A DNA stretch of 64,000 bases from Methanosarcina vacuolata Z-761 (GTDB lineage: Archaea > Halobacteriota > Methanosarcinia > Methanosarcinales > Methanosarcinaceae). Made by a program: the position numbers and the translations under genes. Under the pieces are notes generated by a model. That model had not been told where the DNA came from. It searched no databases and saw only the letters and a program-made list of their open reading frames with translations. The stretch lies in contig NZ_CP009520.1 in NCBI RefSeq assembly GCF_000969905.1, forward strand, positions 3,224,001-3,288,000. Reading direction: 5' to 3'. Within the stretch, counting starts at the first letter, position 1, and each line of letters starts with the position of its first letter. Positions 16,954 through 24,148 of this stretch are shown here, in pieces.

Positions 16954-17331
16954 TTATTCAATTAATACAGCATTTACAACTCCGTCTTGCCCTGGTCTGC
17001 TTGTAACTTTAGCAGTTCCAAGAGGAGTCCTTATTACTGAACCTTTTGTCAGAATGTTACGCCTGATATAGTGTTTGTTTGCAACGTTATCGATAACTGT
17101 CTCAATGGGAGCAGAAGTGGTTTTTCCGTCTTTGGGATTGGTTATGTTTGCAATATTGCACTGAAGAAGTCTTACCTTCCTGTTGCCTCCCATAGTGTGA
17201 ACGTTTTTCCTCTTTATTTCACTTATACGAGTTTCTGCAGACTCACGGCCCATTTCAAACTTGCGCTTTCCGCGGGCAGCAATAACTTTCCCACCGGTCA
17301 CTTTTCTTCTGGAGCTACCTTGCCATCTCAT
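16954..17331 (-). CDS. rps8e: Small ribosomal subunit protein eS8 (S8e)
   Basis: The product has 125 residues, the archaeal S8e length. Its N-terminus [14 protein letters not shown], basic central part and C-terminal [20 protein letters not shown] are diagnostic. It is a structural component of the 30S subunit. It is 70 bp upstream of the Lrp gene and on the same strand, so readthrough into the Lrp-transaminase genes is possible. Confidence 0.97.
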
Positions 17332-17740
17332 ATTAAAACCTCATTGTGTATTGAAATTATGATCAATGCTTATCTTTAATGATTATTTATGTATTTTGCT
17401 ATTGTAATTCTGTACTTTCCGATTGTAAATATACTGTAATCCTGATTATCCTGGTCTGGTGATCGTGTCAGGTATAAGTATAATTATCGCTTATGCTCTG
17501 ATTATATATTAATTTATTAGCAGGAGTACCTAACTAGCATATTTGCTATGGACTAATCAATACAAATAGAATCGTATAAGAACTTTGCGATCAGCCAGCC
17601 AGAATCAAACTCAATTTTACACCCTGCCTGTATCTGTAAAAGGAGATTAGATTTAGAGAGTTGTAAATAAAAATATGATAGTAAGTTCACAAGTGCAGGC
17701 GAAGAAAAAAGGCATATGCTAAAAATTATATAAAAATAAG

Positions 17741-17811
17741 GTGAATGAATCTGGTAAATAAATCTAAAGTGAATGAATCCAAGGTGAATGAATCCAAGGT
17801 GAATGAATCTG
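17741..17811. repeat. 15-bp tandem repeat, about 4 copies
   Basis: The unit GTGAATGAATCCAAG occurs at 17769 and 17784 exactly, with variants at 17741 and 17799. It lies in the 573-bp gap between S8e and the next gene (17332-17904), where I see no other feature besides AT-rich promoter-like sequence. Confidence 0.7.
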
Positions 17812-17904
17812 TTTGCAGGTTAAAGTTAAAATATTAATTTTCTATTTAAAGTTTAATGCTGAAAAAGGACCCGACGTTCCAGGAAATAACGAGGAGAGAT
17901 AACA

Positions 17905-18231
17905 ATGGTTACAGAGATTTCATTGAATACAATATGCGGACATACGACAAAGATAATTGCCACTAAAGAGGGAAAGAGCACTCACATACATATTAAATCT
18001 ACATGTAAAAAACTTCGAAAATGGGGCACGCATTTTGATATGGAAATGAAAGACCTTATGGGAGGTCCCGAAAATATTCTTAGCCAGAAATCAGCTAAAG
18101 CGCCCCTTACACCTACCTGTCTTGTCCCGGCAGCAGTAATGAACGCTTGCTGGCTCGAAAATGGCATGATTTCAAAGAATCTCGCCCGAGAAATGGGAAA
18201 AATGGAGATTATTTTTGATAAATTGGAGTGA
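17905..18231 (+). CDS. Small cysteine-containing protein, probably DUF6951 family
   Basis: The product has 108 residues with a GGAGAG ribosome site before ATG. Four cysteines lie at about positions 11, 33, 71 and 80 (NTICGHTT, KSTCKKLRKWG, TPTCLVPAAVMNACW), a spacing that could hold a metal or redox centre. The pattern fits small conserved proteins of methanogens grouped as DUF6951. The family name is from memory and tentative, and the function is unknown. Confidence 0.72.
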   Translation: MVTEISLNTICGHTTKIIATKEGKSTHIHIKSTCKKLRKWGTHFDMEMKDLMGGPENILSQKSAKAPLTPTCLVPAAVMNACWLENGMISKNLAREMGKMEIIFDKLE

Positions 18232-18315
18232 ATTTTCCGTACTCCAAAAACCCCTAAATTTCCTTTGGTCAGTCTTGGATCGCATTATTAGTACCCTGCT
18301 GATTTGTTGAGATTG

Positions 18316-18428
18316 GGACTTACGCGGCTGAACTGAGAAATCAATAGCATCAAACCCTCAACTGTCTAAACCACTAAACAAGTCACAACGCCTAAAGTGC
18401 TTGATTCTGTACTTCAGTGCGTAAGTCC
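18316..18428. mobile_element. MITE-like 113-bp element with terminal inverted repeats
   Basis: The perfect outer inverted repeat is GGACTTACGC (18316-18325) and GCGTAAGTCC (18419-18428). The similarity extends inward to about 28 bp (CTGAACTGAGAAATCAA against CTGAAGTACAGAATCAA, read inward from each end). There is no coding capacity. GAGAT occurs close outside both ends (18309 and 18431) but is not flush, so a target duplication is only suggested. The repeat is probably the terminal repeat of an autonomous insertion sequence elsewhere in the genome. Confidence 0.65.
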
Positions 18429-18449
18429 TGGAGATAAACTCATCTGGAT

Positions 18450-18860
18450 TCAAATGCTGGAAAGCTCATCAAGTGAAATCTTTTTCCTGTAGCCCATACC
18501 ATGGAATATTGCTACAAGATCTCCTTTATCATCAGTTATATTTACAGTATATGTTGAAATTTTGGGGTTTATTGAGGTTTCTTTTGCTTCCGCTGTGAGA
18601 GTCTTGCCTGTTGCGGCTTTTACAAAAGAAATATTTGCATTGATAGCAACAGCAACATTGCCGTAAGCATTTGACGCTGCAGCAAAAGTGAGATCTGCAA
18701 GGGTAAATATTGCACCTCCCTGAACGGTTTTCAAGGCATTAAGGTGCTTTTCCTCTATATTCATGCGAGCTTTCGCATATCCTGGAGAGGCTTCTAAAAT
18801 TTCGATTCCTGAAATTGCAGCAAAATTGTCATTCTTAAGAAAGTCTTTAATATTTTTCAT
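18450..18860 (-). CDS. PaaI-type hotdog-fold thioesterase
   Basis: The product has 136 residues. It is a single hotdog domain with the PaaI signature HLNALKTVQGGAIFTLADLT (catalytic Asn/Gly/Asp region) and INANISFVKAATG. It hydrolyses acyl-CoA or aryl-CoA thioesters in related proteins. The substrate here is unknown. It is transcribed toward the MITE-like element, whose edge lies 22 bp after the stop codon. Confidence 0.9.
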   Translation of the reverse strand: MKNIKDFLKNDNFAAISGIEILEASPGYAKARMNIEEKHLNALKTVQGGAIFTLADLTFAAASNAYGNVAVAINANISFVKAATGKTLTAEAKETSINPKISTYTVNITDDKGDLVAIFHGMGYRKKISLDELSSI

Positions 18861-18956
18861 GTAATAACTCCAGTTATTGTCAGTAAAGTCGTGCTCTATT
18901 CTGCTTATTTTTAATTAAAGTTATTCTTCTGAATGTAAACTTACTTCTGAATCTAC

Positions 18957-19000
18957 CATTTTTAGAAGTTAATTTTTAGAAGTTCATTTTTAGAAGTTAT
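18957..19000. repeat. 14-15-bp tandem repeat, 3 copies
   Basis: The unit ATTTTTAGAAGTTA occurs three times with single-base variation in the divergent promoter gap between the thioesterase and methyltransferase genes. Confidence 0.65.
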
Positions 19001-19073
19001 TATTCCTGCCGAGCCCCTAATGCAACCATCAAAATCTTTTTGAACACTAAAACTAATTTCACCTGGGATTGAA

Positions 19074-19778
19074 GTGGTGGAAAAAAATGCATTATTCTGG
19101 AAGGCAGTTGTCAAAAGGGCTGTACAGGTTATTGCAGGCCTATTCTTGTTTATGGTAGCGTTTTTTCTTTCTGCCGGTATGATTGATCTGCCCAGAGCAT
19201 GGTTTTTCTTTAGCCTTTATTTCATCTCGGTGCTCTTTAACATGGTTATTTTCCTCAAATTCAATCCTGAGATCATAAGAGCACGGAGTGAAATGAGATG
19301 GGGAGAAATGAAGTGGTGGGATAAGCTATTTGCAGTGCTTTATATCATATTTCTTTTCATAATGTTTATTGTGTGCGGACTTGATGTGGGAAGGTTCCAG
19401 CTTTCAAGCCTTGGGATGGAGTTTCTATCTGTCGGCGTGGTAATTTTCATAGTGGGCTGGGGTTTTGTAACGTGGGCAATGGTCGAAAACAAATTTTTTG
19501 AAACTACAGTCCGCATCCAAAAGGAAAGAAAACATAGGGCTGTTATCACAGGGCCTTATGCTATCATCCGGCACCCGGGCTATGCCGGCATGATACTGTA
19601 TTACGGCTGTGCTCCGTTAGTCATTGGTTCTCTTTACGGTCTGATCCCTGCACTGTTACTTGCTGTTGCTTTTGTTTTCCGCACATACTTCGAAGACAGG
19701 ATGCTCTACGAAGAGCTTCCAGAATATAGAGAATACACAAAGAAGGTAAGGTATCGGCTTGTGCCGTTTATCTGGTGA
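19074..19778 (+). CDS. Isoprenylcysteine carboxyl methyltransferase-like integral membrane protein
   Basis: The product has 234 residues from GTG 19074 (the next codon is also GTG). About five TM helices are followed by the ICMT/PEMT signature ITGPYAIIRHPGYAGMILYY and a C-terminal EELPEYREYTKKVRYRLVPF, which form the S-adenosylmethionine pocket. Related enzymes methylate membrane-embedded carboxyl or amine groups. Archaea lack classical CAAX prenylation, so the true substrate is open. It stands alone. Confidence 0.88.
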   Translation: MVEKNALFWKAVVKRAVQVIAGLFLFMVAFFLSAGMIDLPRAWFFFSLYFISVLFNMVIFLKFNPEIIRARSEMRWGEMKWWDKLFAVLYIIFLFIMFIVCGLDVGRFQLSSLGMEFLSVGVVIFIVGWGFVTWAMVENKFFETTVRIQKERKHRAVITGPYAIIRHPGYAGMILYYGCAPLVIGSLYGLIPALLLAVAFVFRTYFEDRMLYEELPEYREYTKKVRYRLVPFIW

Positions 19779-20040
19779 GGAATAAAAGAATCACTTTTAT
19801 TCTCGACTTTATTTTCAACTAGAATAGTTTCATAACTATTTTCATGACCATGTGCCCGATAATTATTCAGAAAATAAGATTCAGAACTACAGCTTTGATT
19901 TTTGGGATGAGCTCTATGGATATGTGACAGAGAACTACTTTTAAAACGCCATCTGACCCTTAAAACCAGACTAATCTGTATAGTTGATAGAGATTAATTA
20001 TTTATAAGCGGGCCGTTTATTATTTACTGGATTTATATTA

Positions 20041-20115
20041 AATTATGTTTTATTTAATTTGACATATATAATAACATATATAATCGACCTGCTGGTCGAG
20101 CTCGTATACGGGGGT
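20041..20115 (+). promoter_or_regulatory. Promoter region of the sequon-repeat protein gene
   Basis: Two TATA-like runs, ACATATATAATAACATATAT, at about 20063-20082 precede a GGGGGT ribosome site (20109-20114) six bases before ATG 20121. This supports the start and shows a real gene rather than a repeat artefact. The rest of the 342-bp gap (19779-20120) shows nothing else. Confidence 0.5.
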
Positions 20116-20120
20116 TAAGA

Positions 20121-21212
20121 ATGAAAATGAAATTAATCGTTTCTCTGTTAGCTTTATGCCTGACATTGTCCATTGTGTCTGTGCAAGCGCAGACTGACAC
20201 AGACATGGCCGGAAATATGAACAATATGAGTGCGATCCTGGCCGGAAATATAGATGAAACCATTACCTGCAACATGACCGGAAACGCGGCTATAGTCGGT
20301 ATGGATAATATAAGCGGAGAAATGGGGAACATGACCAAAATTGGGAACATGACCAAAATTGGGAACATGACCAAAATTGGGAACATGACCAGACCCATGA
20401 CATCTAATATAGTCGGAAAGGTAGTCATAGTCAAAGATGTTGGAAATATGACCGAAAAAGCGCTTATAATCGGCAAAATGGAGAATCTGCCCGGAAAAGT
20501 GGTTATTTTCGGAAAAATGGATAAAGGTGTAATGGCCGCAAGAATGGAGAACATGTCCGGAATATCAGAAACTCTGCAAAACATGACCATAGTCAAGGTC
20601 GGAACCATGACTGGGACTGTAACATGCAATATGACCACAGATATGGAAAACATGACCGGAATGGCCACAAGAATGGAGAACATGACCGGAAGAATGGAAA
20701 ACATGAATGTGCTCGCGGCTGGAGATATGACTGGAACCATAACATGTGATCTAACTGGAAAAATGATTATAATCAGAAACATGGGCAGTATGGAAGAAGT
20801 GGCCGGAAAAATATTTAGTATTCCCGGAATGGCCGAAAAAATGGATAACATAACCGGAAAAATGGAAAACATAACCAGACCCATGACGTGTAACATGACC
20901 GGAGGCATGATTATATTTAAAGATATGAATAACATGACCTCAATGGTCGAAAAAATGGATACTATGCCAGGAATGGCCGAAAAAATGGATTATCTGAGAG
21001 GAATGGACGCAAGCACAGTTGTACTCGAGGATATGGACATGACTGGAATGGCCGGAGAAATGGGAAACATGACCAGAATGCACGGAAAAATGGGTGTAAC
21101 CGGAAAAAAGATTATGATCCGAAATATGGATGACATGACTCAAATAATAACCAGAACCGTTACATGCAACATTACTGGAAACACGACTACGATTAAGAAC
21201 ATGGGGGCATGA
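20121..21212 (+). CDS. Secreted low-complexity protein of Asn-Met-Thr sequon repeats
   Basis: The product has 363 residues with a clear signal peptide (MKMKLIVSLLALCLTLSIVS, cleavage after VQAQ). The mature part is composed mostly of Met, Asn, Thr, Gly, Ile and Lys. GNMT/ENMT/CNMT recur throughout, giving well over a dozen N-X-S/T glycosylation sequons. A longer repeat recurs five or more times: a T(C/S)N(M/I)xG block followed by a short I/V-rich strand and then (K/R)(D/N)MGNM. Three identical MTKIGN units form a perfect DNA repeat near 20335-20390. No known domain is recognised. It is probably a heavily N-glycosylated surface protein. Methionine richness could also mean copper binding or an oxidant sink (speculative). 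The long opposite-strand frame is a shadow. Confidence 0.75.
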   Translation: MKMKLIVSLLALCLTLSIVSVQAQTDTDMAGNMNNMSAILAGNIDETITCNMTGNAAIVGMDNISGEMGNMTKIGNMTKIGNMTKIGNMTRPMTSNIVGKVVIVKDVGNMTEKALIIGKMENLPGKVVIFGKMDKGVMAARMENMSGISETLQNMTIVKVGTMTGTVTCNMTTDMENMTGMATRMENMTGRMENMNVLAAGDMTGTITCDLTGKMIIIRNMGSMEEVAGKIFSIPGMAEKMDNITGKMENITRPMTCNMTGGMIIFKDMNNMTSMVEKMDTMPGMAEKMDYLRGMDASTVVLEDMDMTGMAGEMGNMTRMHGKMGVTGKKIMIRNMDDMTQIITRTVTCNITGNTTTIKNMGA

Positions 21213-21599
21213 CCGAAAAATTGGGTTGAATAGCTATTGATCAGTAAAATGTTCGTGTAATGAAGCATGAATAAGGAAAGGATTACCTGTCAGCTTGATT
21301 AGAAAATCCTACTCAGGAAGTACTGCAAACATATAGTACTTACAGTTCTTTCCTCCTTTATTTTTCTAGTTTTTATCGTTCATTATCTACTTGACATGTT
21401 TGCCTGATCTCCAAAATCATCCTTCCAATCTATTTCTGCTCTTACTGGAGATTCGGGCGTCAAACAAACTTCCAGGCTAAAATAGATTTATCAATAAGTC
21501 TATGAATGCCCTAAGAATACTTATTATAATTATAGTTCTTTTTTACAATGGAAGTACACTAATCTGCATGTGATCATATACATTGATGAGAGTAAACAC
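21213..21599. other. Intergenic gap, nothing recognised
   Basis: This is 387 bp of mixed sequence between the sequon-repeat protein and the channel gene. No gene, repeat or clear hairpin is seen apart from AT-rich promoter-like sequence near 21515-21550. Confidence 0.5.
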
Positions 21600-22472
21600 A
21601 TGGATAAAGAGCAATTAAAAGAAGAACGAATGGAATTACTTTCCCAGATTGATTCTCTTTTTGATTTTCCTCTCACGTCACTGTCAATTTTATGGCTGAT
21701 TCTTATTATTATCGACTTAGTGTCTGGTCTTTCATCTACATTGCAAACATTAAGTTTTTTTATCTGGGGAATATTTATAATTGATTTTTTTGTCGAACTG
21801 GTAGTTTCCCCGAAAATGAAGGATTATTTAAAGGAAAACTGGCTTGTCGCTCTTTCCCTGTTTTTGCCTGCATTGAGAATTCTTAGGCTATTTAGCGGAC
21901 TCAAAATGGTCAGGTTTGCAAGCCATGTCAGATCTCTTCATCTGGCCAGTGTTCTCTCTTCTTTTTATCGGAGTTTAAGAACAGCCCGGCAGATAATAGA
22001 GCAGCGGGGTTTGGGATATATCCTGCTGCTTACGACTTTGATAACTCTACTTGGAGCCGCGGGGATGTATGATTTTGAGCGGCAAGGTTTTACTTCTTAT
22101 CCGGATGCTCTCTGGTGGACGGCAATGATTATGATTACAGCAGGAAGCAATTACTGGCCAAAAACCATTGAAGGAAAGATACTGGCCTTTCTATTATCTG
22201 CTTATGCTTTTTACATTTTCGTCTATGTAACTGCGGCCCTTGCAAGCCTTCTTGTCGGAAGTGAAAAGTCGTTCTCAAAAGAGATTGAAGAACTGCGCAG
22301 CAAAGTACAGCGCCTTTCCAGTAAAATTAACAGGTTTTCAGAAAGGGAAAAAAGTAGATTTGCAAAAGTTCTCAATCTTTTTTGCTACTGGTTCTTATCT
22401 ATTTTCCGAATTCCTGAGCTATTATTTATCAGGCAAAAACCTATAAAATTTGCAGATTATTGCATAGCCTAA
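21600..22472 (+). CDS. Voltage-gated potassium-channel-like ion transporter with atypical pore
   Basis: The product has 290 residues from ATG 21600. A GTG 30 bases upstream is less likely. It shows a six-TM layout: S1-S3 within about residues 30-115, an S4-like basic helix (LRILRLFSGLKMVRFASHVR), S5 (YILLLTTLITLLGAAGMYDF), a pore helix ALWWTAMIMIT, then S6. The expected selectivity filter TVGYGD is replaced by TAGSNYWPKT, a form I associate with a minority Ion_trans group. Ion selectivity is therefore uncertain. A coiled coil (KEIEELRSKVQRLSSKINRF) follows S6 and may aid tetramer assembly. Confidence 0.85.
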   Translation: MDKEQLKEERMELLSQIDSLFDFPLTSLSILWLILIIIDLVSGLSSTLQTLSFFIWGIFIIDFFVELVVSPKMKDYLKENWLVALSLFLPALRILRLFSGLKMVRFASHVRSLHLASVLSSFYRSLRTARQIIEQRGLGYILLLTTLITLLGAAGMYDFERQGFTSYPDALWWTAMIMITAGSNYWPKTIEGKILAFLLSAYAFYIFVYVTAALASLLVGSEKSFSKEIEELRSKVQRLSSKINRFSEREKSRFAKVLNLFCYWFLSIFRIPELLFIRQKPIKFADYCIA

Positions 22473-22950
22473 AATTCGTTTTTTAATTTAATTCCTTAAA
22501 TTGACAGGGCAATTTCAAATTGCGGAGCCAGCATAAACGCTCTTTGAACTAAGTATATATTAGGTTTTGAAATAAGTCTTTTAACAAAAAAGATTGCAAC
22601 TCAAAAGAATAAGCTATACAAAATAAAATTGTATAAAACAAGCTGTAAATAGTATATTATTAAATATATTCTATTAATTAACAATGGTTTCTTATTTATA
22701 TTTCTATATCTATTATATTCTTTGAGTATAATCTCCTGTTGGTACGTACTATTTGTTGGGGCAACTTGGGATAATTTTAATCGGCAAATTTTTTCGGCAC
22801 ATCAAATGAGATCAAAATCTGTCAGTAATATGTCTTTCAGAATAACGTCAATAACTAAGTGATAAAATTATACTTAAGTGCTGTATCTACCGATAAAACT
22901 GGTTGAAACACCGACAGCTTAGTCGTATCAAATTGAAGGAGTGTGTACAA
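22473..22950. other. Intergenic gap, AT-rich
   Basis: This 478-bp gap has no supported gene. It has several AT-rich TATA-like runs (22630-22700). It presumably holds the promoter of the cysteine-rich protein. Confidence 0.45.
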
Positions 22951-23265
22951 ATGAGAATACTTAGGAAGACAATAAGTGTGTTAGTGCTGGTCTTTTTTGT
23001 AGCATCTCTTACAGCTGGGTCAGCCAGTGCAGGCTACTGGAAAAATGATTGCAACTGCGACAAGGATAAATGCAGTGACTGGGGATGCAAAGATAAATGC
23101 GGTCACAAAGATAAATGCGGTCACAAAGATAAATGCTGTAAAAAGGATAAATGTGACTGTGACTTTGACTTCGAAGCCTTCTTTGGAGGTAGCTTCTTCG
23201 AATCCAATTACTTCTTCGGAAATGATTGCTTCTATGGATTAAGCGACGATTGGTTTGATTGCTAG
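22951..23265 (+). CDS. Secreted cysteine-rich KDKC-repeat protein
   Basis: The product has 104 residues from ATG 22951, chosen for AAGGAG eight bases upstream. An in-frame ATG at 22903 lacks a site and would bury the signal peptide. The signal peptide (MRILRKTISVLVLVFFVASL, cleavage after SASA) is followed by a 45-residue region with ten cysteines in repeats such as KDKCGHKDKCGHKDKC. An acidic-aromatic tail (DCDFDFEAFFGG onward) with two more cysteines completes the protein. The lysine-aspartate-cysteine pattern with two histidines suggests metal binding or a disulfide-linked wall protein. No family is recognised. Its composition is real coding, with signal and ribosome site in register. Confidence 0.75.
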   Translation: MRILRKTISVLVLVFFVASLTAGSASAGYWKNDCNCDKDKCSDWGCKDKCGHKDKCGHKDKCCKKDKCDCDFDFEAFFGGSFFESNYFFGNDCFYGLSDDWFDC

Positions 23266-23620
23266 TGAAATTAACCAGGCTTTCATGATATAAGTATGAA
23301 ACAAATTATCACTCATTCGTAATGTCTTACATCAGGCTGCAGGGACCATTAAGTCCTCAATAGTTCAAGTTTAGAGTTTCTATGGGGAGTACTCTTAACA
23401 GAAATTATGCGTTTAAGTAGTGGTGTAAGCACGTACCTCTATCACATAATTATGGATTAGACAGTTTGAATTCTCATGCGACTGGTTCTTTAGTTAAACT
23501 GCGTAGTTTCTTTCCCTACACTGGATGGCAGTCGTCGAAATGCATTTACGAATGAGTCTCGTTTTATATTTCATAAATTTCATAATCGTACGAATCTGTT
23601 GTATTTTTTTGAAACTTATC

Positions 23621-23736
23621 GGATTTCTAATTTTTCGGATTTCTAACTTTTAGGGATAATTTCTAACTTCTGGGGACAATTTCTAACTTTTAGGGATAAT
23701 TTCTAACTTCTAGGGACAATTTCTAACTTTTAGGTA
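23621..23736. repeat. 20-bp tandem repeat, about 6 copies
   Basis: The unit AATTTCTAACTTTTAGGGAT alternates with a CTTCTAGGGAC or CTTCTGGGGAC variant. It lies in the 883-bp gap 23266-24148, where no gene is seen. Confidence 0.8.
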
Positions 23737-24148
23737 TAGCTTGATTAAGGATAAATTCCTGAGACTCAAACTGCTAACTTCTACTTTGTAACTGATGGTT
23801 AGTGTTACATTTTTCCTGTTACTGATTTAATTTATACAGGATTTATCTCTTAACTCTCAATTAATTTTTTTGACCAAATTTAGCTCATCCTTTAGTGCTA
23901 TATTTTTTGATTCGGGGTTTACTCGATAAACTGCTAGACTGGAGATCACCAATAAAAATAAAAAAAAATATAAAGTGAAAATTGGATTAGTTTATAATTG
24001 GCTTAGTTTATTTAAGAAATAGAGTTGTATCTGGAAAGTAATTTTTATAGAAACAAGTAGTTCATAGAAACTGTGTGCATATGACAAAGAAATAAATGTA
24101 TCCATTAACTTTTCAAAGTCTCAAATATACAGCGCTGGAGGAGTTTGA

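Follow-up and report, generated by a model that had tools for sequence, protein, structure and literature searches.

Within the window, a 64,000-nucleotide stretch of the Methanosarcina vacuolata Z-761 genome, the gene at positions 20121–21212 probably encodes a secreted, N-glycosylated repeat protein of the Methanosarcina envelope or matrix. We assign this reading a probability of roughly 0.6, whereby export, glycosylation, location and role are all predictions. On sequence grounds, the protein belongs to a real, undescribed, genus-restricted orphan family, as far as Pfam, NCBIfam and the PDB go, and its locus has the look of a maintained, expressed gene.

The gene and its family

The initial annotation of this frame as a secreted protein rich in methionine and N-X-S/T sequons was correct in its coordinates, strand, start, ribosome site and frame, as judged from the sequence and translation (Table 1). 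The GGGGGT ribosome-binding site is separated from the ATG by five bases, and the signal-like N-terminus shows a clear n-, h- and c-region pattern, with VQA followed by Q common to the homologues. The mature part consists of 17% Met and otherwise mainly of Asn, Thr and Gly. Among the 34 ORFs of the window with 200 aa or more, the protein stands far above the rest in Met content (16.0% vs a median of 2.3%) and sequon density (5.5 vs 0.3 per 100 aa), which confirms the composition first described. The mature part carries 20 sequons, as against 5.0 ± 1.9 when its residues are shuffled. Neither a membrane anchor nor an S-layer domain was detected in the 363-aa protein, which counts against the envelope reading.

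Table 1. Coordinates of the gene, its upstream elements, the repeat architecture of its product, and related downstream genes in other loci.
Feature	Position	Strand	Evidence or remark
Promoter core: TATTTATAA box (19999–20007) and AT-rich leader	19992..20026	+	Near-unchanged in relatives; transcription start predicted
Conserved 5′ leader (GATTTATATTAAAT ... TTTTATTTAATT ... GGTCGAGCTCGTATAC)	20027..20109	+	Alignment of ten upstream regions
Ribosome-binding site GGGGGT	20110..20115	+	Sequence; GGGGG invariant in ten upstream regions
Gene for Met-/Asn-/Thr-rich, predicted secreted protein, 363 aa	20121..21212	+	Sequence, translation, homologue alignment
Predicted signal peptide, residues 1–23 (MKMKLIVSLLALCLTLSIVSVQA), putative cleavage before Q24	20121..20189	+	Sequence pattern, kept in all homologues
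Module copy 1, residues 36–55 (MSAILAGNIDETITCNMTGN)	20226..20285	+	10.6 bits, above best shuffle (6.9)
Spacer, IGNMTK repeats, 18-bp unit × 4.0 (98% match)	20320..20391	+	Tandem repeat and alignment
Module copy 2 and extension, residues 92–132 (PMTSNIVGKVVIVKDVGNMTEKALIIGKMENLPGKVVIFGK)	20394..20516	+	Invariant columns; NMTE sequon 109 in 22/22
Module copy 3, residues 155–175	20583..20645	+	9.5 bits
Module copy 4, residues 195–222 (MNVLAAGDMTGTITCDLTGKMIIIRNMG)	20703..20786	+	Source of module profile
Module copy 5, residues 250–269	20868..20927	+	7.3 bits, barely over best shuffle
Half module, residues 326–337 (VTGKKIMIRNMD)	21096..21131	+	By alignment
Module copy 6, residues 344–362	21150..21206	+	4.1 bits in window protein
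Downstream NMTGM-repeat secreted proteins	L052:4263-5270, L049:7992-9272, L053:7800-9890

Searches of Pfam, NCBIfam and PDB sequences gave no convincing family match for the window protein or its homologues, in agreement with the initial statement that no described family resembles it, and a profile search against the PDB returned nothing below E 0.2. Weak Pfam and NCBIfam matches (Snapin, PA, COG and others), each seen in only one to three members, were discarded as low-complexity noise. A contig search with the single protein yielded no matches; the search with an alignment recovered 11 named Methanosarcina loci, including one of Methanosarcina spelaei. A 22-row profile detected homologues in 22 of the 31 Methanosarcina genomes; the 155 genomes searched from 26 further genera of the order yielded no match. 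The nine Methanosarcina genomes without a match, a point against the envelope reading, include complete-looking ones, so that the gene is widespread in the genus without being universal. The literature on Met-rich Methanosarcina proteins contained no mention of the 363-aa protein that we could find, the M. barkeri and M. mazei proteome papers offered no sequence link to its gene, and no glycopeptide, transcript or peptide of it is reported in the Methanosarcina literature searched. One homologue (L051:5595-7568) is 657 aa long and carries a fused C-terminal DUF4430 domain.

The initial annotation had named a frame broken in the relatives as grounds for dismissing the protein; the frame is intact in 22/22 homologues compared. 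The dN/dS of the conserved framework lies between 0.25 and 0.48 in the pairs measured, while that of the alignable spacer codons, which are few, spreads widely from 0.12 to 0.88. Across ten upstream regions, the box, leader and ribosome site have hardly changed, even between relatives with proteins of only ~45% identity. With up to 3 mismatches allowed, the combined pattern of box and leader has a single match in the genome, and Rfam gave no family match for the leader, nor for any element within 17000–24000. The unusual conservation of the promoter and leader at 19990–20115 may point to a regulatory leader.

It could be argued that the locus is a non-functional, slippage-driven DNA repeat that is open by chance, given its repeat-rich sequence, its 18-bp tandem array and its open antisense stretches. 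We give this reading hardly any credence, and it is refuted by the intact frames in all 22 homologues, the dN/dS below 0.5, and the conserved promoter, leader, ribosome site and gene order. By comparison with the relatives, the longest antisense ORF (20054–20935, strand −) is a by-product of the sense repeats, since the antisense frames contain stops in nearly all of them and the sense frame is stop-free in 22/22.

Module and spacer architecture

The description of the protein as made almost wholly of repeats proved too strong. About 300 residues form a framework that aligns column by column across the genus, and the spacers alone vary in length. The building block of this framework is a module of ~25 residues (VLMAGNMTGTITCDLTGKMIIIRNMG), present in six or seven degenerate copies. 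A module profile was built from copy 4 (residues 195–222) and compared with a null of 440 shuffled sequences, the best of which scored 6.9 bits. Outside the training block, the profile matches corresponding places in nearly all homologues with up to 35 bits, the matched places lying at about residues 36–57, 88–110, 155–175, 195–222, 250–270 and 344–362. These matches at corresponding places indicate that the TCNMTG blocks, initially called irregular, are the recognisable cores of successive copies of one degenerate module.

The copies are not equally clear in the window protein. Most homologues match the profile at the copy-2 place, whereas the window protein does not, even though the region of residues 92–132 is the best conserved stretch of the protein. 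Homologues score up to 29 bits at the copy-5 place, and up to 15 bits at the half-module place, where the window protein stays below 3 bits. The copy-6 score of the window protein alone is not above the shuffles, but homologues match at the corresponding place.

The spacers vary by whole repeat units between homologues, and the copy number of the IGNMTK spacer differs between species in the alignment. For example, the homologue in L034 contains six KMGNMT units compared with four IGNMTK units in the window protein, while NATEAD units are found in L048 and Gln-rich units in L035 and L039. The module is probably β-strand-rich, as judged only from its alternating hydrophobic pattern. Two AlphaFold models based on 11-sequence alignments (pLDDT of 29 and 26, pTM of 0.23 and 0.17) gave no usable fold, and the strand pattern in these low-pLDDT models was not counted as evidence.

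Sequon retention and methionine exchange

Sequons are enriched in every homologue, with 13–38 in each mature chain compared with 4–10 in shuffles. Counted over related sequences, in which the same lineages enter repeatedly rather than as independent events, and in a low-complexity alignment that tends to place NMT on NMT and thereby favours apparent sequon retention, Asn was kept in 0.67 of comparisons inside sequons vs 0.47 elsewhere and Thr/Ser in 0.73 vs 0.47 across all homologue pairs; in strictly ungapped framework columns the values were 0.70 vs 0.50 for N and 0.79 vs 0.50 for T/S, and in the strict framework of the closest four species the contrast was nearly gone (N 0.79 vs 0.75). The sequon at residue 109 is conserved in 22/22 homologues, that at 51 in 21/22 and that at 63 in 20/22. 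The middle position is Met in 302/557 sequons; V, I, T, A, Q and further residues fill it in the rest, and the homologue in L048 retains the sequon while swapping Met throughout its NATEAD spacer. Part of the sequon excess comes free with the expansion of an NMT-containing repeat.

Methionine itself makes up 10–19% of all homologues, falling to 10% in some. Outside sequons it is kept in about 0.6 of comparisons, with V, I, L, T or A as replacements. The motifs MxM and MM fall far below the shuffles (1 vs 9.0; 0 vs 9.0), MxxM exceeds the shuffles in the Met-rich clade (16 vs 9.2; 28 vs 11.8), and His is nearly absent (0–1). Taken together, the retention of N and T/S, the exchange of Met, the depletion of MxM and MM and the scarcity of His favour the sequon rather than the thioether as the selected feature, subject to the caveats of alignment and relatedness given above.

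The genome of the window contains three STT3/AglB oligosaccharyltransferase genes (PF02516 matches over the cut-off). In M. mazei, an AglB has been detected and surface proteins bear glycans of hexose and N-acetylhexosamine (PMC4350412). Of the two roles initially proposed, a heavily glycosylated coat protein is thus the better supported, through sequon enrichment and retention and the STT3/AglB genes, with the glycans and a coat lattice being putative.

If the N-glycosylated envelope or matrix reading holds, the chain would be exported through Sec and then lose its signal peptide, and the mature chain would consist of six or seven module copies. Flexible spacers rich in Met, Asn and Thr would link these copies, and slippage of short DNA repeats would alter the spacer length. 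Of the roughly 20 sequons, many would receive N-glycans from AglB, and the protein would act as a sugar-covered brush at the S-layer or extracellular matrix of these aggregating cells, either within it or on its surface. Methionine would then be for the most part a hydrophobic residue that is tolerated and has multiplied with the repeats, not a functional group.

Methanosarcina cells aggregate, and an adhesin or aggregation factor would also be a secreted repeat protein with variable spacers and a presence that varies within the genus. Here, the modules would bind partner cells or minerals, and the sugars would be a mere by-product. We consider this unlikely: no adhesion domain was recognised in the window protein, nor in its homologues among the Pfam matches listed.

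As an N-glycosylated envelope protein, the sequon protein would resemble the DUF1608 S-layer proteins of the same genus (MA0829, MM1976 and Mbar_A1758), which are secreted, located at the surface and N-glycosylated (PMC3361143, PMC4350412). In contrast to this predicted likeness, its composition, length and repeat module are unrelated to theirs, and no DUF1608 or other S-layer domain was seen for the 22 homologues among the Pfam matches listed (best 25 of 30 families, E up to 1). The DUF1608 proteins are candidate physical partners of the sequon protein. The family is a well-conserved and probably surface-located one in a model methanogen genus, yet missing from Pfam and NCBIfam, and its very dense sequon pattern would make it a useful object for work on archaeal N-glycosylation. 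Should the sugars be confirmed, it would provide a genetically tractable AglB substrate and a marker of the Methanosarcina matrix.

Gene neighbourhood and the metal and redox readings

In many genomes the order of genes is kept: a thioesterase gene (reverse), a methyltransferase- or hydrolase-like gene, the sequon gene, and genes for an ion channel, a Cys-rich secreted protein and a rhodanese-like protein. The small secreted Cys-rich protein (22903–23265, strand +) carries (KDKCGHKDKCG) repeats with an 18-bp tandem unit and is a possible metal binder; it is a conserved neighbour in about 15 loci and has no Pfam match. A PF01794 ferric-reductase-like membrane protein is encoded near the gene in about ten loci (for example L041:3976-4641) and is absent beside the window gene.

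In six related genomes, a further secreted protein with the same type of signal peptide is encoded directly downstream of the sequon gene. The downstream proteins of L049 and L052 have a plastocyanin-type cupredoxin at their C-terminal end (PF00127, E 6e-10 and 9e-10, respectively), and in L053 a cupredoxin reading frame comes after a stop behind the repeat protein. Those of L052 and L053 contain long DNMTGM runs with CYLxGxMKCYxPE motifs. PF00127 matches are present at the sequon-gene locus in genomes G007, G012, G015 and G021. The cupredoxin fusions of L049 and L052, and the related protein of L053, resemble the sequon protein in their signal peptide and NMTGM-type spacers, but they lack the TCNMTG module framework and, except in L052, have an N-terminal domain of their own. 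No PF00127 plastocyanin-type cupredoxin was found in the genome of the window, nor a copy of the downstream fusion gene, an empty search that alone shows little. A cupredoxin domain (PF00127/PF13473) is absent from the window protein, and none was seen for the homologues among the Pfam matches listed.

This neighbourhood bears on the other role initially proposed, a methionine-rich metal or oxidant buffer. As an extracellular binder of copper, silver or other soft metals, the protein would hold Cu(I) at the surface through its spacer thioethers, beside a secreted cupredoxin. The high Met content of all homologues and the MxxM excess of the Met-rich clade would fit such a role, as would the downstream secreted gene of six relatives with its cupredoxin ending in L049 and L052, a short paralogue in L057 that adjoins a cupredoxin lipoprotein, and the conserved Cys-rich neighbour. 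Several observations stand against it. V, I, T, A or L take the place of Met, the motifs MxM and MM are rarer than in shuffles, and there is hardly any His. The genome of the window yielded no PF00127 cupredoxin, and the cupredoxin neighbour, which may reflect one ancestral event, is linked by position, similar signal peptide and spacer and shares no modules. The bacterial proteins SilE, PcoE, CusF and CopC are exported, Met-rich copper or silver proteins that use His together with MxM or HxxM/MxxH motifs. The sequon protein is likewise rich in Met and predicted to be exported, but differs in its near absence of His and depletion of MxM, so the His plus Met motifs of SilE/PcoE type (MxM, HxxM) are not its pattern, and no sequence relation was found. 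The copper reading is therefore doubtful, with the cupredoxin-fusion neighbour of other genomes as the one observation that speaks for copper in particular. Metal binding by Met, if real, would suggest that a strict anaerobe handles copper outside the cell.

A sacrificial oxidant scavenger, in which surface Met is oxidised and so shields a strict anaerobe's envelope against oxygen, is very unlikely. The Met content is very high and the PF01794 neighbour of about ten loci represents a domain type also present in MsrQ, but spacer Met is not preferentially kept and gives way to non-oxidisable residues, no methionine sulfoxide reductase was identified beside the gene, and the PF01794 neighbour is missing in the window.

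M. barkeri cells that take up electrons from Geobacter show increased cupredoxins (PMC6315138), but in the present analysis their genes were not linked to the sequon locus. Quite speculatively, and with low probability, the genus-specific β-repeat module, dense N-glycans and Met-rich linkers could represent a new architecture. With the Met-rich cupredoxin and Cys-rich secreted neighbours of some species, it would give a strictly anaerobic methanogen an extracellular layer for soft metals or redox chemistry, which may be connected with the uptake of external electrons.

Paralogues of the sequon protein were also observed. The one at G000:C2:766118 (L054:6619-7542) has 307 aa of near-pure GNMTG/TCNMTG repeats and is followed by a P-type ATPase-like gene. 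Together with its relatives L055–L057, it shares the kind of signal peptide and the NMTG/TCNMTG repeats of the sequon protein, and L055 and L057 also have a TATA box and leader similar to those of the sequon gene; unlike the sequon protein, these relatives and the paralogue are almost pure GNMTG repeats with no conserved framework. Within the window, a further intergenic tandem array is located at 23613–23738, with a 20-bp unit repeated five times (ATTTCTAACTTTTAGGGATA).
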